A DNA stretch of 64,000 nt, from NCBI RefSeq assembly GCF_947623445.1, contig NC_135243.1:8372501-8436500 (forward strand), in the 5' to 3' direction. The notes under the pieces were generated by a model, which was not told where the DNA came from, ran no database searches, and was given only the letters and a program-made list of their open reading frames with translations. Both the position numbers and the translations under genes were made by a program. Position 1 is the first letter of the stretch, and each line of letters begins with the position of its first letter. The DNA comes from Clavelina lepadiformis. Lineage: Eukaryota; Chordata; Ascidiacea; Aplousobranchia; Clavelinidae. Below are positions 2,828-54,274 of the stretch, piece by piece.

Positions 2828-4097
2828 TTTTATGCTTTTTAAAGGTTATTCCTCGATACCAACGAATCTCATCTTAAGACGTAAATAATTGATGGTTAGT
2901 AGTTGTCCTAGGAATGGCGTATATACGTTCAGATAAACACTTATCAATTTCCAGTTGCTTTATTAGTTCAACCGTCTAGGTTAATAGTTCGACATTTTAA
3001 CGTGGTCACACTAGTACTACATTTGAGTTATCAATTGAAAAACTTGGTGTGTCTGATATAAATACCGTCCTTTTTAAAGACAATTTTCCCGAGGGTAAAT
3101 AGTTATGTAAGCATAAAATTTGCAACCGAATACGGGCATCATAATGTGATTAAAGCTATCATGCACCTTACCGGTTACGTCACAACTAGGCGTTAAAAAC
3201 GCAACGAACTTCGCAGACCAGCGTGAAGCTGGTTACCGGTTCCCTGTTTACTCATTTAAAACGTAAAGCTGTATGCTGGGTACGGGTTTCTGTTTATTTA
3301 TTCATACTTATTCAACGGAACTACAATATTGTTTTTAATACATGATCACATGACTGTATCTAAGAGTGTTGATTTCATGATAAACTCGAATATAGCGGAA
3401 GATACTTTTGAATAGGTTGTCAATTTTTCTTGTTAAAAGAAGCGGTATACCATTATGGGTGTCAGTTGAGTAAGACAGGAAGGAAAATGATTAAACTTTT
3501 CAAGCAAACTATAACGTTACGTTGGAAAATTCATCATTGCCTCAGTAACATCGTCATACTAACCTGATATTTTGTCGCGTTTGTGTATTGTATGTTCAAA
3601 ATGTACACAGAGTTTACCACAATTACAGTCCAAATAGCAATAAAACGCACAACGCATATATCGAACTAAAACAAAAAATATATCATGCTTCATGTAAGTG
3701 TGGTATAACGAGAAAAATGTTAATTAGCGTTTAAATTCAGCTTATGTATCTTTCCGGTCAAGCAAGCAGTTTTATAACAATGAATAATACGGCTTTTATC
3801 TAGTACAGAAAAAAGGATTCAAATTACCCTATATACATGAACAAAAATAATATCATTAGGCCTACTTGCAAAAATATAAACATGTATGACATGTGCAACA
3901 TAACATGAATGCAATACAAACGAGAGCAGTAATACAAGTGATGTAATGTTTGAAGTTTAAAAACCTACAATTAACTTGAAAATTTCATTTCTAACAAGTA
4001 AATCTGCTATATACAAACGATGGACAATTCTTTCCACTATTTCAGACACAACGACAAGGTACAGATGACACAGAAGAAATTACTATAAAGGGTTTCT

Positions 4098-6499
4098 TCA
4101 ATTGTTGGTCGAATTATAATCAACGGGGGCGCTCTTTTCTCCTCCAGCACAAGTGTTAGGCTTGTAACGTCCGCACCAATCATATTCCTTCAATATATAA
4201 TATAAACGATTAAAAGTGTCAGACAATTGTAAACTGTTACGGTATTAATAACTGGGAAGCAAGTTGCAATAGTATTCTGGGCTTCTTACACTGTTAAATG
4301 TTTCGTAATGATGAAAAATATTGAGGTGTATTTGAAAAAGGCCAGGGAAATCTTTGGCCTAAACGTCATCAAAATATCTTAAATCTTTTTTTGCAATTTA
4401 GAGTAATGGAATGGAAGTGTAATTATTGAAATTTGTATGCGGTTTGTTTGCATGAGTATATAAGGGCGATTAAGCAATATATATGTACACTAGTACATAG
4501 GCTATAGTAAATATACACAAAATAATACCGAAATGATCAATTACAATCTGTCGTTCAAAATTGGTTTGACACAGTGCGTCTGGCTTCTAAGCGGTTGTGT
4601 CATTACGATGTATTTTTCAGTTTGTGAATAAACTCATCAAAATGTTGATTTTGAAGGCCTGCCTTATAAGCAATGCATAATACATGTGTGACGTGACGTT
4701 GTTGTGAAAAATGCACCACATCACACAACACCATGGTCAACAATTTTGATGATTTCCATACTATATCATATTGTGATTGTGATAATTCCAAAACCGTTCG
4801 ATTATGTTTAATAATGCTACGTCGTATGAACAGGTCACACCGAAAACATTTTTGTCATGATGAAACCATTAATCACATGATACAGTTATTCGCGTTAAGC
4901 CTGTTTCAAACCTTTGTCTGTGAAGATAGCTAATAGCCGTAATGTACAGTATATAACTTTTATTGCCTTAATAACTTCCAAACTTACTTCTGTTGCGTCT
5001 GAAGTGCTAGAATAGATATTAATGACGCCTACGCCAATCCAGAAGATTGCCAGTACCCAGTAAACAGCATAGCAATATCCATATTCCCAACCAGCAGAAA
5101 TATTTGATGCAGTGGGTGCAATAGCCGTAAAGCATATCACCCCAATGAGCATGAACAAACCTTTTAAAGCATAATTTTAGTAAGGTTGTCGTGGCAAACC
5201 TATCCATGATCGTAAAAACTTTGCCAGGCATTAGCTACCGTTCTTGCAATCGAACTGCATTATGTCTTCTTACCGGTAAAAATACTGAAAGTTCCCTCTA
5301 TCTTTAGGACAGTTTTTAATGTTTCCAGCCTGCTGCACCATCCCTTAAACCATGATATGATGGTAAAGCCCATGAAAATATCAGCAATAATAATGAGTAT
5401 GCGAGTCACGTACGAAGCTGTGTATGGGTCTGCTGCTGTCCAGGCTAAAAAATGACATTTATGGCAAACGTAAAAACAACGAATAGCAGTTTGATATAGG
5501 TTTCAGTAAGTCATAATTAGGGCAACCAGTTTTTTGACCTAAAAAGTTTAAATTTTGACCTTAAAATTTGCAAATTTTGACCTCATTTTGACCTAAAAAG
5601 TTTAAATTTTGACCTTATTTTGAAAAACGCTATACTGATAGTCTCTACACTGTCTACAGCAACTTTCTAATCTAAAGCTGCATTTAAAAATGACAAAATG
5701 CTTTTCTAGTGTTGACTTTTTTTCGTTTCTGCGTATTAAGATTGACAACTTGCAGTTTCAAATGCAATGCCGTCACATCGTGACGTCACCAAACGCGCTG
5801 AAAAGCCTTCCCTCTCTTTGTGGCTTTGGTTCTAAGTAAAATTTGCGGCACTGGAATTGTTTGCGGTACAAGAAAAGAGAAAAACGGAAGAATAATATTA
5901 CAAAATGGTTACAAAATTACAAGTTTAATAGATTTTGACCTAAAAAAAAGACCTAAAGAAACAATTTGACCGTATTTTGACCTAACGTAACATTTTGACT
6001 TTATTTGACCTAATAACTTCTATACCACACGTCGTACAAAGCTGAAATTTGTTTTGTGCTTGTTTGATAACATTCTGGGCAGGTTAAAAAAATTGACCAT
6101 ATTGACTTTTGGTTGCCCTAGTCATAATACAGTACTGTGTTTGTTACGTTGTGAATTGGTTGGCTATTTTGCCTACAGTAACGTTATTTACGAAGACTGA
6201 GCCACCGGCCCGCGCCCACCAGTTATGTCATATCCTATGAAAATAGCCAGCACTTCCTGTAACCGTATTTGAGCAGAATAGTTACAAAACATTTTATTGT
6301 GTAAAAACGTTCATGTTTATTTTCCAATTGAAGCTATGTACTTACGGAGAGCTGTACAATCCGGTGTGCAAACCTGATACAGGCCTACTCTTTCAGTTGG
6401 AGTATAAATCCATTGGGTGTTTATTTGAAAAGATATACTCAATCCGAGCAAAGCACCTCTTGTGAGATTGGAAGCAAACTGACCTAGCCTTGGATGCAT
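4098..6499 (-). CDS. tetraspan claudin/PMP22-like membrane protein, copy A
   Basis: Four exons read on the minus strand: 6499-6346, 5444-5274, 5160-4988 and 4187-4098. All junctions are GT-AG with matching phase, giving an intact 195-aa protein. The order is a weak first membrane segment (about 9-26), an extracellular loop with W30, GLY at 39-41, C44 and C48, then three strong segments (about 64-83, 100-122 and 133-155) and a polar tail with the motif YDWCGRYKP. W...GLW..C...C is the claudin/PMP22/EMP signature; here the third residue is Y instead of W. Membrane or junction function is inferred from the family; the exact subfamily is unknown. It is arranged head to head with copy B at 13681-15194. 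Intron 1 carries a hAT MITE absent from copy B. Confidence 0.8.
5518..6120. mobile_element. hAT-like MITE in intron 1 of copy A, perfect TSD
   Basis: The ends TAGGGCAACCAG and TTGGTTGCCCTA are inverted repeats. GTCATAAT flanks both sides exactly (5510-5517 and 6121-6128). Copy B of the duplicated gene has a single ATTATGAC at 14057-14064 in the equivalent place, which is the empty site. Just inside the ends, TTTTGACCTAAAAAGTTTAA and similar TTTGACC repeats recur on both sides (5530-5640 and 5935-6010). No transposase frame is seen. Confidence 0.92.
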
Positions 6500-21400: not shown

Positions 21401-21722
21401 TGCCAAGAAGTCAGAAATACAAGCACATAAGCAAAACTAAAATCAAAAGTATGTAGAAATGTATAGAACGTACCTTGGCACAAGTGTTTTTCCAGCTCTT
21501 AAATGCATCCTTTGCACATTTCACTGCATTTTCAGTATCTTGTCTAGAGCAGTCTGCTGCTTGTCCAACATTCTCTCCATTAAATGGGTTTAAGACAGGA
21601 AAAGTTGCCCTAGCAGATTGCCACTTGCCATTAACATAATACTTATCTGTGATAAACTTTTCCATATTTCTCACGCTGTAGCTCCTTGAGTGCTGAACAA
21701 GCCCTGACAAGTTTTTGAGCAT
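18402..21722 (-). CDS. ALDH5A1: succinate-semialdehyde dehydrogenase, mitochondrial
   Basis: Oxidises succinate semialdehyde to succinate with NAD+, the last step of GABA catabolism, in the mitochondrial matrix. Ten exons on the minus strand: 21722-21474, 21332-21249, 21140-20970, 20757-20641, 20434-20291, 20227-20084, 19920-19762, 19566-19403, 19037-18979 and 18604-18402. All are phase-consistent; 497 aa from this ATG. Landmarks in order: [21 protein letters not shown] and [12 protein letters not shown] (NAD site), [19 protein letters not shown] with the catalytic Glu, GQTCVCPN with the catalytic Cys and the second, redox-switch Cys of [14 protein letters not shown], and [13 protein letters not shown]. 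An upstream in-frame ATG at 21836 would add 38 residues of targeting peptide; both N-termini are basic and lack acids. It is head to head with the collectrin-like gene. Confidence 0.95.
19090..19320. repeat. AGTACTT-rich stretch in ALDH5A1 intron 8
   Basis: The motifs AGTACTT, AAGTACTT and AGTACTCA recur about ten times in both orientations between exons 8 and 9. The stretch looks like a decayed short repeat or MITE; I could not define ends. Confidence 0.4.
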
Positions 21723-21836
21723 AGAAACGGCCACGTGAAAAGACGCTGGGTTGTAAAAGGAACATCTGCTAGTGTTTACAGACAATGTTTGAGCAGTAAT
21801 ATAGCAAACTTTGTTGAAACCATGTCTGATAGTCAT

Positions 21837-22622
21837 CGCAAATGTGCTATGATCCCTAAGAAGTTGGCACCACACTGGAAAATTTAGTTTGCCATAATAT
21901 ACTAATTCTAATTCTGTATAAACATAGAAATTATAGGAAGAATTAAGGTAAATATGGTAATTAACTTGATAGATTGTAGACGACCAAGTGATGTGGAGTG
22001 ATAAAAGAGCAGTGGCCTGAGAAGCAATGATGGAAGTAAATAAAATGCTAACAAGTACAGGAAGTTCAACAATTAGAAAGCACAAACAATATAATATAAA
22101 AATTTTGAGCTACGAAAATCCTTAAAGCTTGAAGCATCAAAACCTTAGATTCATTAATAATTTCTTACCCAGCAAAAATGTTGACCATGTCAGGCAAAGC
22201 AAACAAAAGTGTTCATGGTAAATATTTACCATCGTGACGTGACAATGCTTAGTAACTTTCCACAATGAGCTACCAAAAATTTATTGACGACTCAGTCCTT
22301 TTTAAAAAGCTTTGGATCTTTTCTACTTAAACGTAATATTTTAGTTATAGAATCTCTTACATGTCAAACGTGAATACCTAGCACAAGTCATTTTATGAAA
22401 ATTATCAATAAACTGGCTATTGGTATGGATATGTGCTGTTACTACAGCATATTAGTAGGTGTTTGTAACTAAACACAAAGTTTTTTTCTAAATAATTTAT
22501 AATAAATCAGACTTAAATTCTTCAAAACAACTAAACAGTATTTTATGTCATTTATAGTTTAGTTAGTAAAAATCTGTTCCAAGATAAGAAAAGTAGTAGA
22601 GTTGAGAAAGTAGTTCAAGTTA
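21837..22622. promoter_or_regulatory. shared upstream region of two divergent genes
   Basis: ALDH5A1 starts to the left (minus) and the collectrin-like gene to the right (plus), leaving about 0.8 kb between start codons. The only long open frame here is the upstream extension of ALDH5A1 exon 1, which is probably 5' leader. No clear TATA box is assigned; a shared promoter is inferred from layout. Confidence 0.4.
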
Positions 22623-29526: not shown

Positions 29527-32500
29527 ATGGATAAAAAACCTTTTTCGATGAAAGGTCTTGAAGAAACATTATCAGACGATGATGATATTGTTTTACAACA
29601 ACCTGGTAAACTATAGTTTATATATACACTTAGGCATAAGCTATGTTTGTGCAGTTTGGACAAGCATATATATTTTTAGGATCTAGTGCAGAAGTGCACA
29701 ACCAGGTGACATCACAATTTAAGTAGCTGGGGTCTAGTATACAAATGCATCCTGTGGTTGTGCACTTCTGTACTAGACCCCATTTTTATATGGGCTGATA
29801 CTTTTTGATGCCTGTACTTTTTTATGGAAAATCATCAAAAAACATTTGAAATCAATTCCTGACAATTAATTTAACATTGTTATTGTTTGTTAACCACACA
29901 TCAAAACTGATGTACATTTTGTTATTGTTTAGTAGCCGAGTAATATAGAGCATTGCGCTGGCAATATTGCGACCTGTGTTCAATTCCCAGTGGTGCTACT
30001 ATTGCAATGCTGTTGGGCGAGGCATTAATGACGCTTACTCCTGTTCATTGGACCTGATGAACAGTACAAGTTTTGGGCTATACGATATAAAAAAACAAAA
30101 AACAAATAAAAAAATGTGTGATAATTAGATCTTGCACAAAAGCTAGCTTGTTAACCATGGCTCTAGTGATGAGGAATCATCGCCAAGTTAATGACGTGCA
30201 AAGATTTTCTTCAGTTCAAAGATAAAGTTTATATTATACCATTCAGTTAACAGATTCACTATTGGATTTAAGGCAAACATGTTTTTTCACTTGTTCATTC
30301 AATAAGTTAACTTTTGTTGTTATTAAAAAAAGGATTGTCCAGTTTTATGAGCTACTGCTGGTATAAGTACATGACACATTTACTTTGAACCTGGATTTGC
30401 AATTGGTGTTATCTTAAGTCATAAACTTTAGCCATATGAACAGTAACCTAAAGTTGTTTTTTTTTACATAATAGAGTGTATAATTTATATTTATTGATTT
30501 AATGATACTAATACATTATATAATATAATTGATTTTATTTACAGTGTTTAATTTTGAATGAAAAATTGCTTTTTTAGAGAATACAATCAGCAAACTCAGT
30601 ACTCAGACACATCCTTCCATTGAAAACAATGAATCAACATCATTAAGTCATCAAAGCAACAGACACCAATCCAATCAGTCCAGAAAAGAAGTCATTGTCA
30701 AGGTGTATATACTGAATGCTTACTATTAATTTTTTTCAGTTTTCAGAAAAAGTTTGACCTCTGCTTCTTAATTTTAGTAGGCTTTATTTTCATATTATAA
30801 GTTATGCGATACCACATATTCTATGCCAATGCAAATTCTTAGTTTTAAATGTACATACTTATGACAAGACTGTGTTGATGCATTTTGCAACTAAGAAACT
30901 AACATTAAAATCAGTTATTTGTATGTTGGCGCAGTAGCCGAGTGGTTGGAACGCTGGCATTGCAACAAATGTGGCTGTTTGATACCCAGTGGCGCTATAC
31001 CGTTGTAATACCCTTGGGCAGGGCAGTAATGGCACTTGCTCCTGTTCAATGGACCTGGTGGACTGTTCTAATTTCGAGCAATAATTCACACTATATAAAA
31101 AGTCAAAAAACCAAAAAGTTTGTGGCAATTGTCGCTTGCACAAAGGCTAGCTGGGCAACCAGGTCTCAAGCGATGAGGATTCATCGCCAGGTTTAAGTCG
31201 TGCAAAGACTTTTCTCAGGTTGAGGATAAAGATTATCATACCATAGGCATATACACTACATGCGTCACATAAACAAAAAGGATGCAGCAAGAAATTTAGT
31301 TTGCACTGTGTTTTGTTATTAAAATTATTTTAAAAGTTTGGACTGAGTATTTGATGTTAAAAACAAATAAATGCACACATAGTTAAAAACAACTTTGCTT
31401 TGTTGCAGAAAGTATATGTCAATAGAAAGTCAATTTATAATATAGCGAATTGCAATAAATACTGAACTATTTGAAAGTATTTTTATCCTAATTAATTTGT
31501 AGTCAGTTGGAGTATCATAATTGTTATATCATTGCAAGTGTGGAGTAATTAATATGGAGAGGTAGTCATGAACGTTCAGTACTTTCACTCTCAACAACTA
31601 TTCCTATGGGCTCCTGACTAGTGTTTTGATACCAAAATGCACAATATGCTGTAAGTATATCGTCAACTGCCCTAACTTCGGACAAATTTCATTAACAATC
31701 CTAAATAAATTTGTGAGTATTATTTTTTCGATACGTTTTCTTCTATGATTTAGACATTAATGGTTTTAAATTTAAGATATTACCAATTTGTTAATTCAAA
31801 GTTATATATCTAAAAAATGTATCATAATATTTTAACATTTTTATTGTCCGAAGTTTGAATCCTTTTTTCAACACTTCGAGCAAAGTACTTCAAAAATTGC
31901 TTTTCACACTTCTACTTGGATACAAAAATCAATCGATGAAATTTGTAGTTTTAAATTGTTACAAAAGCAAGTACGTAGTAACTTTATCAAACATCCATAA
32001 TCTGTCTATTTTCACAGGATTAAGTTTTTAATAGAAAAAAATTTTTCTTTTTATCAGCATCAAAATACAGACTACTCCTAAAACACCAGAATTCTGCCAT
32101 AAATTTGTACACTTAGCGAAAAATCTTTTTTTATTTTAAAAAGTGCTATATGCTCCATACCATTATCTAAGTTTTAGGCAAAAGCACCCTTTGGTGTTTG
32201 TAGCAGTGAGAGTTAAAGAAATTGTCCAAAGTTTAGATGCAGTCCGAAGTTAGGCCGATTGACGGTATATTTTTAAATGTCGTAAGCTGACACAAGTTTG
32301 TCAATGAGTTGCAAATTTTTGAGCTGAAGTATTTTCATTCTGTGTGATCATGGCGACTGATTACACTACGTAACACAATTTTTGTTTGGCTACTTTTTTA
32401 ATGTCCTTTTATGTATTTTTGGGTGCTGAGTTCAAAAATCCAGTTAGTTTTTTCGTACCATCGTTACTTTTTGAGATATTCAAACTTTGATATAGCTGTA

Positions 32501-35500
32501 AGTATAGCAAATTGTGTTCTACTCTTGCAGTAGATTTTAACTCCACATCAAGGTTCCGATCCGTTTATTAAACGCAAAAGCCAGTTTAAAAACGTTAATA
32601 AGGAAGGCTTGAAGATAAATGTAACATAGTTTTGTCAAACAGTAAGAGTCGTTCAAAAATGTACTTTTGAGCGAGCTTTTCTTTTATGGCCGTGCCTGTC
32701 TTGCCTTACTAAAGACCAAATGTAGTCTCCCATCATTGCACTATCCCAGCGGCCTTTGTATCGTTTTTCCATTAGCTCAATATCCTGATGAAATCTCTCA
32801 CCATGCTTCTCACTGAAGTCACCTAGATTTTCTTGAAAAAAATCCAGATGGGAACATAAAAAATGAAGTTTGACAGACATGCGACAACCCATGTTTTGGT
32901 AACTTCTGATAAGTTTCTCCACCAACTCTTTGTAATTTCTGTCCCTTTTATTTCCCAAAAATCCATCAACCACACCTCGAAATGCTTGCCACGCTTCTTT
33001 TTCTGTTTCATTCATTTTTTCTTCCAAGCTTTTACGCTTTACCATTGTGTTTATCTGGGGACCAACAAATATTCCTCCTTTTATTTTGGCAAGTGATAGT
33101 CTGGGAAACATTGAACGGATTTCTTGAAAAATTTGTCCTTTGAAAATCCAAAGCTTTCACAAACTGTTTTACCAGACCTAATTTGATATGAAGTGGAGGC
33201 AGTAAAACTATTTCTCTATTACTTTGATATGTTTATAGCAAAAATAGCAATCATCATGATGATTTTGCGGCTCTCTCCAATTTCTGGGAACTGCAAATGA
33301 CATAACTTTTCCAGAACCCCTCAACCATCCTTCAAGATTAGATCGACAGCTACCACAGATTACATGTGGTGCCCATGACTTATCCTGATCACCAATGTCC
33401 ATCCCAAAATATAGTCTATATGCTGTCCAATACTTTGTTCTTTTCACAATTTTATATGCGGTGTGTTTACTGCTGATGTAGAATCCACATACATAACAAA
33501 AGCAATCCGGTAAATTTTTGCATTGTCTACTAGACATTTTGATTTCTACTATTTAAAAGATGAACTGAATCTAAGATTTACAAAATGTAATCATATGGCA
33601 TACTTCTCTCTGTAAACACTAAACACGACTTTCTAGTGATACTATACTGAATTTAACAAGCTGAGATAAAATGAAAACTGAGATAAGAAATAAAAGCACA
33701 TTAGTCTGCATTTCACATTCCCACTCCCATTCACTTCCTCAAGTAAATAGGACCGATTTACAACTTGATAATGCTGACAGATACAGATCATAACCGCATA
33801 AAAAACCTACAGTTAATGGAAAATCACAAAAAACGAAAATCGTTGTATCTTGAAAACGATCGATGATAGAAAAAAACTGATAGCATTTTTGGAATCAGCG
33901 CTTGAAAATCATACAGATACACTTAATAAATGTAGCCAAACAAAAATTTTTTTAAATTTTGTTACGTAGTGTTATTTATTGCTAAATGGTTATGACTCAT
34001 TCTGTGCATAACAAGTGTGATGCAATGTATGCAGTCACTGACACTGTCAGAGTAAAACTTTTTCAAAATTGTTCATTAGTCAAGCTATCATGTGAAGCCG
34101 GAATCAGTAGAAAAACATCCGCTTTCCAGAACCTCCTCTGGATCTTCATCATCAGATTTGGATCTAGATGTCACTTTCAAGAAATCGTCACCGAGGTAGG
34201 TACTACGATTTATTTGAAACTCGAACATTATATTCTCATCAAATCTCTACATTAGATGGTAGATGTACCTATGCTTAATATTATGATCTGTGGTATTGTA
34301 TGCTATAATCAGGCCAGAACTCATGTGTTTGGAACTAATGGAATCCAAAATTCAGCCAGTAATTTATTGTGATATGTAATTTACACTTTTTATAAATAGA
34401 ACTACCGGTTAATCTATTCTTTTTGTTGCTTGCCTGTTTTGTTATTTATAAATGTACCGGTAAATATTATGATAATTTTTTTTCAACTCAGTTCATAAAA
34501 TAATCTCCACCATTAATTGTTGTGTTAATGTGCCAACTCCACGAACAGTTTGTTAAAAAATGATAGTTTAATAAAATATGATATATTTTGCTTTCAGTAG
34601 AATATATCTGGTAACCATTTAATTTTTGGTATAATTGTTTGATGCAACTGCGAGTATCCATAAATATATATATATATATATAAACAGCTAGAATTTAAAA
34701 TTTGTTTTTTGCAAAAGTTACTTGGTAAGAATTTTTATTTCTAAAACGATGCATTCTCCACTGCACATATTACAAAAACCATGCCATGGTAAACAAAAAG
34801 TTTCCTTACTTTACATAAATATTTAGCACATATTATTCGTTTTCCACAAATTGAAATTCATACTTCCAATTATCAAAGTTACAATGTTCTGTTCATTGTC
34901 CAGGCTGTCAATAGTAACTCACTCACTCGCTACAAAAATTCCCCATTTCCTTTTTAATCAAACAGGATGTAAATATCGCTGACAAGAACAGGCTGCTTAG
35001 GTAATTAAGCTATATCCATATGCTCGGTATGGTAAAACAGCTCTTCACGCCGTTAGCAGAAATAGCATTAAACGCAGTACCGTATATATCGGGCTGTTGC
35101 TTGGAATGGGTTAGATGAAGTCTTAAGTTTTACCTAATTGTTCAGTGGCTATGTAATTGCTTTCATTGTGTGGTAATATGTGCAAGGTTTCTTTAAACTC
35201 TGTGCACAAGACTCGTATGCACAGGCATTGGTACTGTACTTACAGGCAGTCTTCTGCAGCCAGTATAAATTGAATTAAAGTCAAGCAAAATGGCAGGCTC
35301 TCAGTAGAAAAGGAATACAACTAATAAACTTGCAGAAATATACAGAAATGCAATAATACGTTAAAGTCTAAAACAGCAAATAAAAAATAAATTAATAATA
35401 GTACACACAATCATCTAAAATTTCTAAAAATAAGTATGGTATGGTGCTGAAGCAAAACGTTTACTAATCCATATATTGATTTTCACTAAAATAGGATATA

Positions 35501-51233: not shown

Positions 51234-52405
51234 CAACAGCATCCGTTGAAAAATATACCAAGACACAATAAACGCCCAACTTAGTGAAGTAAAGATAAGC
51301 GTTATCCAACAGTTTAATACCGGTAAACAACCACCCGTCAAAGTCAAACTAACGCTATAGTACAACTGCAATGCAAGCACTAGGAAGGAAGCTAACGAGC
51401 ACGTTTTTCAGTTTTTTTTTTTCACCATAAATCAAGCTGCGCTTCACCGCCAGCTAGCGACACGAGAAGTTTTCCCCAACGGCCGACATAAGTTGTTAAA
51501 AAGTCGAAAACATTTTTTGGTGGCCAGCCAGCCATTCATTTATTCATTTTATTCTTAGTCTTCAATGTGAGGGACGAAAGAATTGTGTCAGTCGGTACAA
51601 TACATTTTACTGGCAGCTGCTAGCATTCTGGCATATGCTGATTGCTGACATACTTGTGCTAGTGTCGTAACAAGAACAAGCTGACATACGTAACAAGAAC
51701 GTTCAGAAGTGGTATGCTGCATTACTAGGCCTATTAAGATAAAAGATTGTGTGCAAAGTCCAATATGGCTTGTTTTTAAATAGAAATGAGTAAATCTCTA
51801 AATGACTTAATGTTCAAAGGTCAGTAGTCGTGCTATTGTTATGCATGCCCTCAGGAGCTTAGAAAAAGGTAAAATACTTGCATAGTATATACAGCAGTTT
51901 ATAGACGAGAAGCCAGTAAGAGGTTGATATCAATTCATGGCAGTAATGTCACAGGCCTATAAGATTAGTCATCTATCAGTCTGTTGCAGATTTGCTCTGC
52001 ATTTAGCTTATAGACCCAGACGGAAAATTTTGCTGTTTTTGGGTGGGAAATCCCCTGCACAACAAATGTAGCAATCAACCATTATACGTGCAATTAATTT
52101 TAATCCCCCTCGCACTTATTAAACTTTCCAGTTTGGGCCTAGTCTATGTTAGGTTTGAGTGCGTGACTTAAATTATATAGACTTGTGTTTCTGCTAAATA
52201 ATTAGCTTAAGTAACTGTTTAGGCTACTATGCTTATACCAGCGGTATAATAGAACTTTATGTACCTACCACAGAAATTATGATTTGTATAGTTGATAACA
52301 ATGTACTATTATATTTGCACAAGCTTTCAGGTTGTTGCCTTGTAATCGTTATTTTCTGTGAGTTGAAAATTGTTAGTCGTAATTTTTCTGAGTTAAACAC
52401 CTAAA

Positions 52406-54274
52406 ATGGTTAACTACTTGCCATATCTTGTAGCAATACCAGCTGGTATGTTTGTATTATGGCAATTCTTGAAATCTTATTTTCCTTGGATACCAAGAGA
52501 TATTGAATATTTGCGGAGGCTGGTCAAATGTTTGAAAATGATAGGGCAATTTAGGTCCAAAAATATTACAATTAGTACAAAGCTTGAGGAAAATGCCAGA
52601 AAATCTCCTGATCATAGATGTGTTTTATTCGAGGATGAAGTTTGGACTTACAAGCAAATGGATGAATGGTCCAATCGCTGTGCTAGAGCTGTTAGATCTT
52701 TGAACATTTTGCCAAAAGACAAGGTTGGATTGATGATGATGAATGAACCAGCTTTTATTGCCATTTGGATTGGAAACATAAGAGCTGGTGCAATTACTTC
52801 ATTTCTTAATTTCAACCTAAGGTCAAAAGCGTTGCTTCACTGCATTGATGTTGCTGAAATCAAAACCTTAATTGTCGGCAAGGACAAGGCTTTGGTTGAT
52901 GCTATTATAGAGATTGATGCTGATTTGAAAGATCGTGAGATCAAAGTTTTAGTATATGGTGATGATTATGAAGAATATGACTCATTTGCTAATGTGGTGG
53001 AATGTCAGAATTTTGACCAGCCAGATTGGATTACTGGATGTAAGTTTGACGATCCTATTTGTTACATATACACTTCTGGAACTACTGGCCTACCTAAAGC
53101 TGTAGAGGTCAATAACCGCAAATGCTGGGGAGGAAGTTGTTTGATGACTTTCGTTCAACCTTCTCTAACAAAAGATGATGTTGTGTACACATCTTTACCT
53201 TTATATCATTCGTCTGCTGCATTGATCGGTGTTGGAGGTGCTCTCTTACATGGCAGCACCATGGCACTGAGGAAGAAGTTTTCTGCTAGTCAGTGTTTAC
53301 CAGACTGCCGTAAGTTTGGCGTTACAATAGTGCAGTATATTGGAGAGACACTGAGGTATGTCTGCAATCAACCTCCTCATCCCGACGATACAAAGCACAG
53401 CGTGAGAGCGGTAATAGGAAATGGTCTGCGACCAGATGTATGGAAAATTTTTCTTAGTCGTTTTGGTCCCAAAATTCATGTCATGGAGTTTTACGCTGCC
53501 ACTGAAGGGAATGTAGCATTTGTTAATTTGTTTAACTACTTTGGATGCATCGGTACCTTTACTCCGATTACCAGCAGACTGGGCCCTGGAAGAATTGTGA
53601 AGTTTAATACTGAAACTGAGGAAGTGATTCGAGATAGAAGTGGCTATGCCATGTCAGTTGGTGTTAACGAGCCTGGTTTGTTGATAGGCAAAGTTACGCC
53701 ACAGTTTGCTATTTCAACTTACAAAGGTAACAAAAGCTTAACAGAGAAAAAGATTCTACGAGATGTCTTCAAGAAGGGAGACAAGTTTTTCAACACTGGT
53801 GATCTACTTATGTATAATGATAGTTACGGTGTAAGTTTCTGTGACAGAGTTGGAGACACTTTTAGATGGAAAGGTGAAAATGTTTCTACAAACGAAGTCA
53901 GTGATACAATTGTGATGCTAACTGGAATCCAAGAAGCCAACACATATGGCGTTAAAATTGAAGGCTGTGATGGAAGGGCTGGTATGGTGGCTTTGGTCTT
54001 AGATGAAGGAAAGGAACTGGACACAAAAGCACTCTATGACCACGTCTGCAGCAGTTTACCCTCCTATGCAAGACCAATCTTTGTGAGAGTTTTGACTGAG
54101 TTAGAGCTGACTGGAACCTTTAAACAACGAAAAGTTGCTTTGAGAAATGAAGGATTTGACCCAGATGTTGTGACAACAGATAAGCTTTATGTCATTGACA
54201 ACAAGAACAGAGATTTCATCCCACTCAATACAGAAATCATCAACAAAATCAGTAGTGGAATGCTAAAGCTTTAA
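52406..54274 (+). CDS. SLC27 / FATP-type very-long-chain acyl-CoA synthetase, intronless
   Basis: Activates long and very-long-chain fatty acids to acyl-CoA with ATP, coupling uptake to activation at the ER or plasma membrane. The single open exon gives 622 aa, close to human FATP family lengths (about 620-690). An N-terminal membrane segment (about 4-28) comes first. The AMP-binding loop YIYTSGTTGLPKAVEV is at 220-235, the FATP motif YAATEGN at 363-369, FNTGD at about 462, and the FATP signature DRVGDTFRWKGENVST at 480-495. The C-terminus has LTGTFKQRKVALRNEGF, as in SLC27A1/A4/A6. I cannot tell the exact paralogue. Neighbouring genes have many introns and this one has none, so a retrocopy or intron loss is possible. 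The frame is intact and all motifs are kept, so it is likely functional. A candidate poly(A) signal AATAAA lies at 54547-54552. Confidence 0.95.
   Translation: MVNYLPYLVAIPAGMFVLWQFLKSYFPWIPRDIEYLRRLVKCLKMIGQFRSKNITISTKLEENARKSPDHRCVLFEDEVWTYKQMDEWSNRCARAVRSLNILPKDKVGLMMMNEPAFIAIWIGNIRAGAITSFLNFNLRSKALLHCIDVAEIKTLIVGKDKALVDAIIEIDADLKDREIKVLVYGDDYEEYDSFANVVECQNFDQPDWITGCKFDDPICYIYTSGTTGLPKAVEVNNRKCWGGSCLMTFVQPSLTKDDVVYTSLPLYHSSAALIGVGGALLHGSTMALRKKFSASQCLPDCRKFGVTIVQYIGETLRYVCNQPPHPDDTKHSVRAVIGNGLRPDVWKIFLSRFGPKIHVMEFYAATEGNVAFVNLFNYFGCIGTFTPITSRLGPGRIVKFNTETEEVIRDRSGYAMSVGVNEPGLLIGKVTPQFAISTYKGNKSLTEKKILRDVFKKGDKFFNTGDLLMYNDSYGVSFCDRVGDTFRWKGENVSTNEVSDTIVMLTGIQEANTYGVKIEGCDGRAGMVALVLDEGKELDTKALYDHVCSSLPSYARPIFVRVLTELELTGTFKQRKVALRNEGFDPDVVTTDKLYVIDNKNRDFIPLNTEIINKISSGMLKL

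Follow-up and report, generated by a model that had tools for sequence, protein, structure and literature searches.

An internally deleted, probably Chapaev3-type DNA transposon with CACTA ends and a broken transposase gene

Chapaev3 is a group of cut-and-paste DNA transposons within the CMC clade. CAC and GTG termini are given for Chapaev, and all Chapaev3 elements examined in the same source are flanked by TWA duplications lying between an A and a T (PMC4079192). One of them, Garfield_BM, is ~2.3 kb long; its transposase is described as a protein of 556 aa in which the motifs C(2)C, LH and H(4)H occur (PMC4079192). A complex zinc finger termed the Chapa domain is reported for Chapaev3 transposases (PMC4411706), and Chapaev3 copies are listed in a blowfly (PMC3630058). 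The motifs C(2)C and H(3-4)H, located between the second D and the last E, are described as common to EnSpm, Mirage, Chapaev, Transib and RAG1 (PMC12730594); for mouse RAG1 the residues D708, C727/C730, H937/H942 and E962 are given (PMC4914335).

An earlier note on the window (the whole stretch of 64,000 nucleotides analyzed here) had singled out a short element carrying a gene for a GERFHQDI protein as a candidate for an undescribed system. The family fits the Chapaev3 group of CMC transposons instead, and the kind of system is known: an ordinary non-autonomous transposon. With a probability of about 90%, the element is a Chapaev3-group transposon that is dead and non-autonomous; the name is based on the combination of ends, target, length and motifs as published and not on a sequence alignment.

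The element in the window and its broken gene

The whole element spans positions 32364 to 33971 (1,608 bp, minus strand). It starts with CACTACGTAAC, finishes with GTTACGTAGTG and carries a copy of TTA on each side, at 32361 to 32363 with an A before it and at 33972 to 33974 with a T after it. The terminal inverted repeats (TIRs; left, beginning CACTACGTAACA, 32364 to 32404, plus strand; right, 33921 to 33971, minus strand) pair in two segments, one of 22 nt with 91% complementarity and one of 34 nt with 82%. The TIR match holds on alignment, as the 60-nt ends score 24 compared with at most 17 in 20,000 random window pairs. An 11-bp perfect TIR combined with a 3-bp repeat is not rare when taken alone, with three in the window versus 1.24 expected (maximum 5; 50 Markov sequences). 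The decisive point, from which we conclude that the element is real, is that the same ends with at most two mismatches lie on either side of the gene at 25 of the 30 close loci. The description of a CACTA-ended 1.6-kb element with long TIRs and a TTA duplication was therefore borne out, with coordinates, termini and duplication being exact.

The gene lies on the minus strand and is broken into a 109-aa ORF, a short fragment and a 167-aa ORF in differing frames. Its 5' part, the 109-aa ORF (33208 to 33537, minus strand; ATG at 33537, stop at 33208-33210), encodes the N-terminal Cys-rich domain. At the deletion junction (~33214-33220, within 33208 to 33220) ~895 bp of a longer copy are absent. 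A remnant reading LPPLHIKLG, which contains the LH motif, is located at 33128 to 33220 (minus strand), and the 3' part, the 167-aa ORF with the H(4)H motif and HGERFHQDI, at 32653 to 33156 (minus strand). The codon of the presumed third catalytic residue, the E of GERFHQD, was placed by eye from the sequence and the alignment at 32797 to 32799 (minus strand). LH, H(4)H and E are the motifs left in this copy, while both D and C(2)C are lost. Judged by the motifs of the family, the protein inside the element is a remnant of the transposon's own transposase. The earlier view that the gene is not a transposase did not hold, since D, D, E are present in full-length members of the family and the stretch with both aspartates is missing from the window copy. 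Truncated P-element proteins (KP) repress P. By analogy, the 109-aa ORF, which has the Cys-rich domain and no catalytic core, might act as a dominant repressor of a full-length Chapaev3 transposase, although we regard such a role as very unlikely.

Two further ORFs were observed elsewhere in the window. A 625-aa ORF on the plus strand (52397-54271) with AMP-binding and AMP-binding_C domains is probably a host gene, and an ORF on the minus strand (21414-22109), the C-terminal part of which matches aldehyde dehydrogenase (PF00171, E 6.2e-8), is perhaps a host-gene exon.

The transposase family in the genome

A search of the window's own genome (209 Mb) with the 167-aa piece yielded at least 151 matches to the GERFHQDI family; the true number may be higher, because scoring covered 150 of the 1,170 candidates. 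Thirty close loci, the window copy (L001) among them, and 20 more distant loci were used. Five of the more distant loci contain single ORFs of 554-565 aa; in these full-length members a Cys-rich N-terminal domain precedes D, D and E, and the motifs C(2)C, LH and H(4)H are arranged in the order known from Chapaev- and RAG1-type transposases. Seven proteins were aligned (A1; the five full-length members and two that are shorter at the N-terminus), and D264, D318, E516, C337-x2-C340, L385-H386 and H494-x4-H499 are invariant among them; the spacing is 19 residues from the second D to the first C and 17 from the last H to the E. These open frames, which belong to other subfamilies of the same genome, are by sequence candidate transposases, and among the 30 close loci no intact full-length gene of the window's own subfamily was found. 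Full-length relatives encoding a probable CMC transposase, a search for which had been proposed, were thus obtained, the transposase being the family protein itself.

Pfam returned no family above cut-off for the two window ORFs or seven relatives, and the matches below cut-off include a weak zf-AD-like one to the Cys-rich N-terminus. This N-terminus is probably the Chapa domain. PDB chains gave no match for the family up to E 10, nor did NCBIfam and PHROGs with two proteins each or a literature text search with the string GERFHQDI. Pattern scans of viral and prokaryotic collections, from which records near the window genome may have been omitted, pointed to 59 and 67 stretches, none of which was upheld by tblastn, and the DNA pattern of PPLHIKLG occurred in three viral contigs, all of them unrelated (best E 0.78). 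Because no Pfam model is reached, copies of the family can pass as unknown genes, here and probably in other genomes. The present assignment corrects this annotation gap for a transposase family without a Pfam model above cut-off, and with GERFHQDI recognized as a signature of the Chapaev3 transposase, such copies can be masked and named.

Four family matches (L018, L022 and two more) lie within ~65 kb at G000:C2:18.63-18.70 Mb, and the two longest copies of the window subfamily that were observed are among them; the cluster is perhaps a segmental duplication. Beside the family member of L034, ORFs at 543-1349 and 3930-4700 of the reverse complement resemble, by eye, pieces of a hAT-type transposase.

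Target sites, deletions and movement

Ends were searched with at most two mismatches in 11 plus an inner TIR word, within the stretch cut for each locus. Both ends are present in 25 of the 30 close loci, counting the window copy, and two ends were not found in the cut stretch of L005, L018, L022, L023 and L028. Identical 3-bp flanks surround 15 of the 25 two-ended copies (9 TTA, 5 TAA, 1 TTG); exact TWA duplications are consequently present in 14 of the 25, which is 14 of the 15 exact duplications, and all 15 insertions lie between A and T. The expectation that family members sit between CMC-type ends with 3-bp duplications was hence confirmed in the window's own genome. The ten two-ended copies without an exact 3-bp duplication are L010, L017 and eight that lie in a MITE. 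For 11 of the 20 more distant loci the two ends could be placed, partly by eye. Five of these have exact TWA duplications (L037, L041, L042, L045, L046), three show TWA after a one-base slip at the right end (L033, L034, L039), and three do not show TWA (L049, TTT; L036, TTA/TTG; L038, none). The letters after CAC vary by subfamily (CACTAC, CACTGTG, CACTGG, CACCATG), CACTA termini being found in the window subfamily while the other subfamilies have CACTG or CACCA ends.

The eight copies in the MITE (L006, L007, L014, L019, L020, L024, L026, L027) share a common insertion point within CAGGGCTGGGGAGCC...GGCTCCCCAGCCCTG, which we take to be hAT-like on account of its ends and 8-bp duplications. 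They were amplified together with this MITE. Exact 8-bp duplications surround the composite in four of the eight (L007, L014, L024, L026); for L019 the duplication is not judgeable because the stretch stops inside the MITE. Empty sites, represented by the four of 36 matches that cross the insertion point, each similar to part of the MITE only, read CTTTAATAATTTG, and the occupied site reads CTTTAAT, the element and then ATAATTTG in seven of eight copies, with four extra bases in L027. The MITE site contains ATAAT, yet two bases (AT) instead of three are duplicated there.

The longest copy of the window subfamily observed, L022 joined to the adjacent L051, measures 2,577 bp and combines the N-terminal domain with the D-D-E stretch. 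It contains stops, and its two parts are in different frames, for which an intron is a possible explanation; an exact duplication is missing because the right end is altered. Compared with this copy, the window element lacks one block of ~895 bp that encodes the two aspartates presumed to be catalytic together with the C(2)C stretch. Another difference, of 129 bp, corresponds to a simple-repeat run in L022 and L051. The commoner class of 1.81-1.83 kb, to which 15 of the 25 two-ended copies belong, lacks another, partly overlapping block that includes the N-terminal domain. The deletion junction of the window copy is crossed by a single other locus, L055, while the other 38 of 40 scored matches (79 candidates) stop there. 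L055 has the same 895-bp gap and no exact duplication, and its flanks are unrelated to those of the window copy, with nothing beyond 9-nt chance words. Since the same junction lies in unrelated flanks, the deleted form was probably mobile after the deletion had arisen, with the enzyme supplied from elsewhere (in trans).

We propose that the full-length transposase of another copy would bind the CAC...GTG ends, excise the element and join it into an A-TWA-T site, by which a 3-bp TWA duplication would be left. The window copy, from which ~895 bp and both aspartates are lost, would be movable solely with an enzyme provided in trans.

Alternative readings and likeness to known systems

The GERFHQDI protein had been viewed as cargo or as an accessory gene of a CMC transposon whose transposase is encoded elsewhere, which would agree with the failure of Pfam to recognize a transposase domain in the window ORFs or the full-length members and with the eight of 25 copies that ride within another transposon, the hAT-like MITE. 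However, the family members have the invariant D, D, E and the CMC motifs, and no second ORF of >150 aa was seen inside the ends of the 11 distant two-ended loci, with up to three ORFs shown per locus. As the members carry the catalytic signature themselves, we reject this reading as highly improbable. A genome search for Transposase_21 gave no match, but detected 0 of 14 controls either and is uninformative alone. The assignment to CACTA/EnSpm made in the earlier note stands with respect to the CMC type with a 3-bp duplication, while Chapaev3 (TWA, CAC...GTG) is the better subgroup. An EnSpm/CACTA element in the strict sense would account for the CACTA ends and the 3-bp duplication of the window subfamily, but hardly for the CACTG or CACCA ends of the other subfamilies or for TWA in 14 of 15 exact duplications, and PF02992 was without match at E<=1 in the two window ORFs and seven relatives; we consider it very unlikely.

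TWA duplications would also be consistent with a PIF/Harbinger element, yet they do not discriminate, being a feature of Chapaev3 as well. The Harbinger DDE domain, presumably PF13359, had no match at E<=1 when the two window ORFs and seven relatives were compared with Pfam. Published descriptions place C(2)C and H(4)H in the CMC/Transib clade (PMC4079192, PMC12730594), and the chance of a Harbinger element appears negligible. Ends, target and domains led us to reject both the strict EnSpm and the Harbinger identity. A CMC-clade lineage near, yet outside, the published Chapaev3 group might be considered since that group was compared by description, not by sequence; ends, A-TWA-T target, protein length and motifs nevertheless fit the published group as it is described (PMC4079192), which makes a separate lineage unlikely. 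The Chapaev3 assignment is accordingly preferred.

Of the known systems, EnSpm/CACTA resembles the window subfamily in its CACTA ends and 3-bp duplication, and differs in that no Tnp2 (PF02992) was found, that the exact duplications are nearly all TWA and that other subfamilies have CACTG or CACCA termini. Transib elements have a target duplication of 5 bp, in contrast to the 3-bp duplications of the family, for which the PDB chains were without match up to E 10. Transib/RAG1 and the family share the order D, D, E and an H(4)H before the E (PMC4914335). The distance from the second D to the first C is 19 in mouse RAG1 as well as in the family, whereas that from the last H to the E is 20 in mouse RAG1 versus 17 in the family (PMC4914335). 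Unlike Chapaev3, the window copy is without both D and C(2)C, and the named families were compared by description only. The ORFs of 554-565 aa and the elements of 2,577 bp and 2,295-2,668 bp agree with Chapaev3 in size, though the window copy does not. As described for Garfield, Merrow and Conan, the family has CAC...GTG ends and TWA between A and T, and it shares with Chapaev3 a transposase of ~556 aa with C(2)C, LH, H(4)H and DDE as well as the occurrence of non-autonomous derivatives (PMC4079192).
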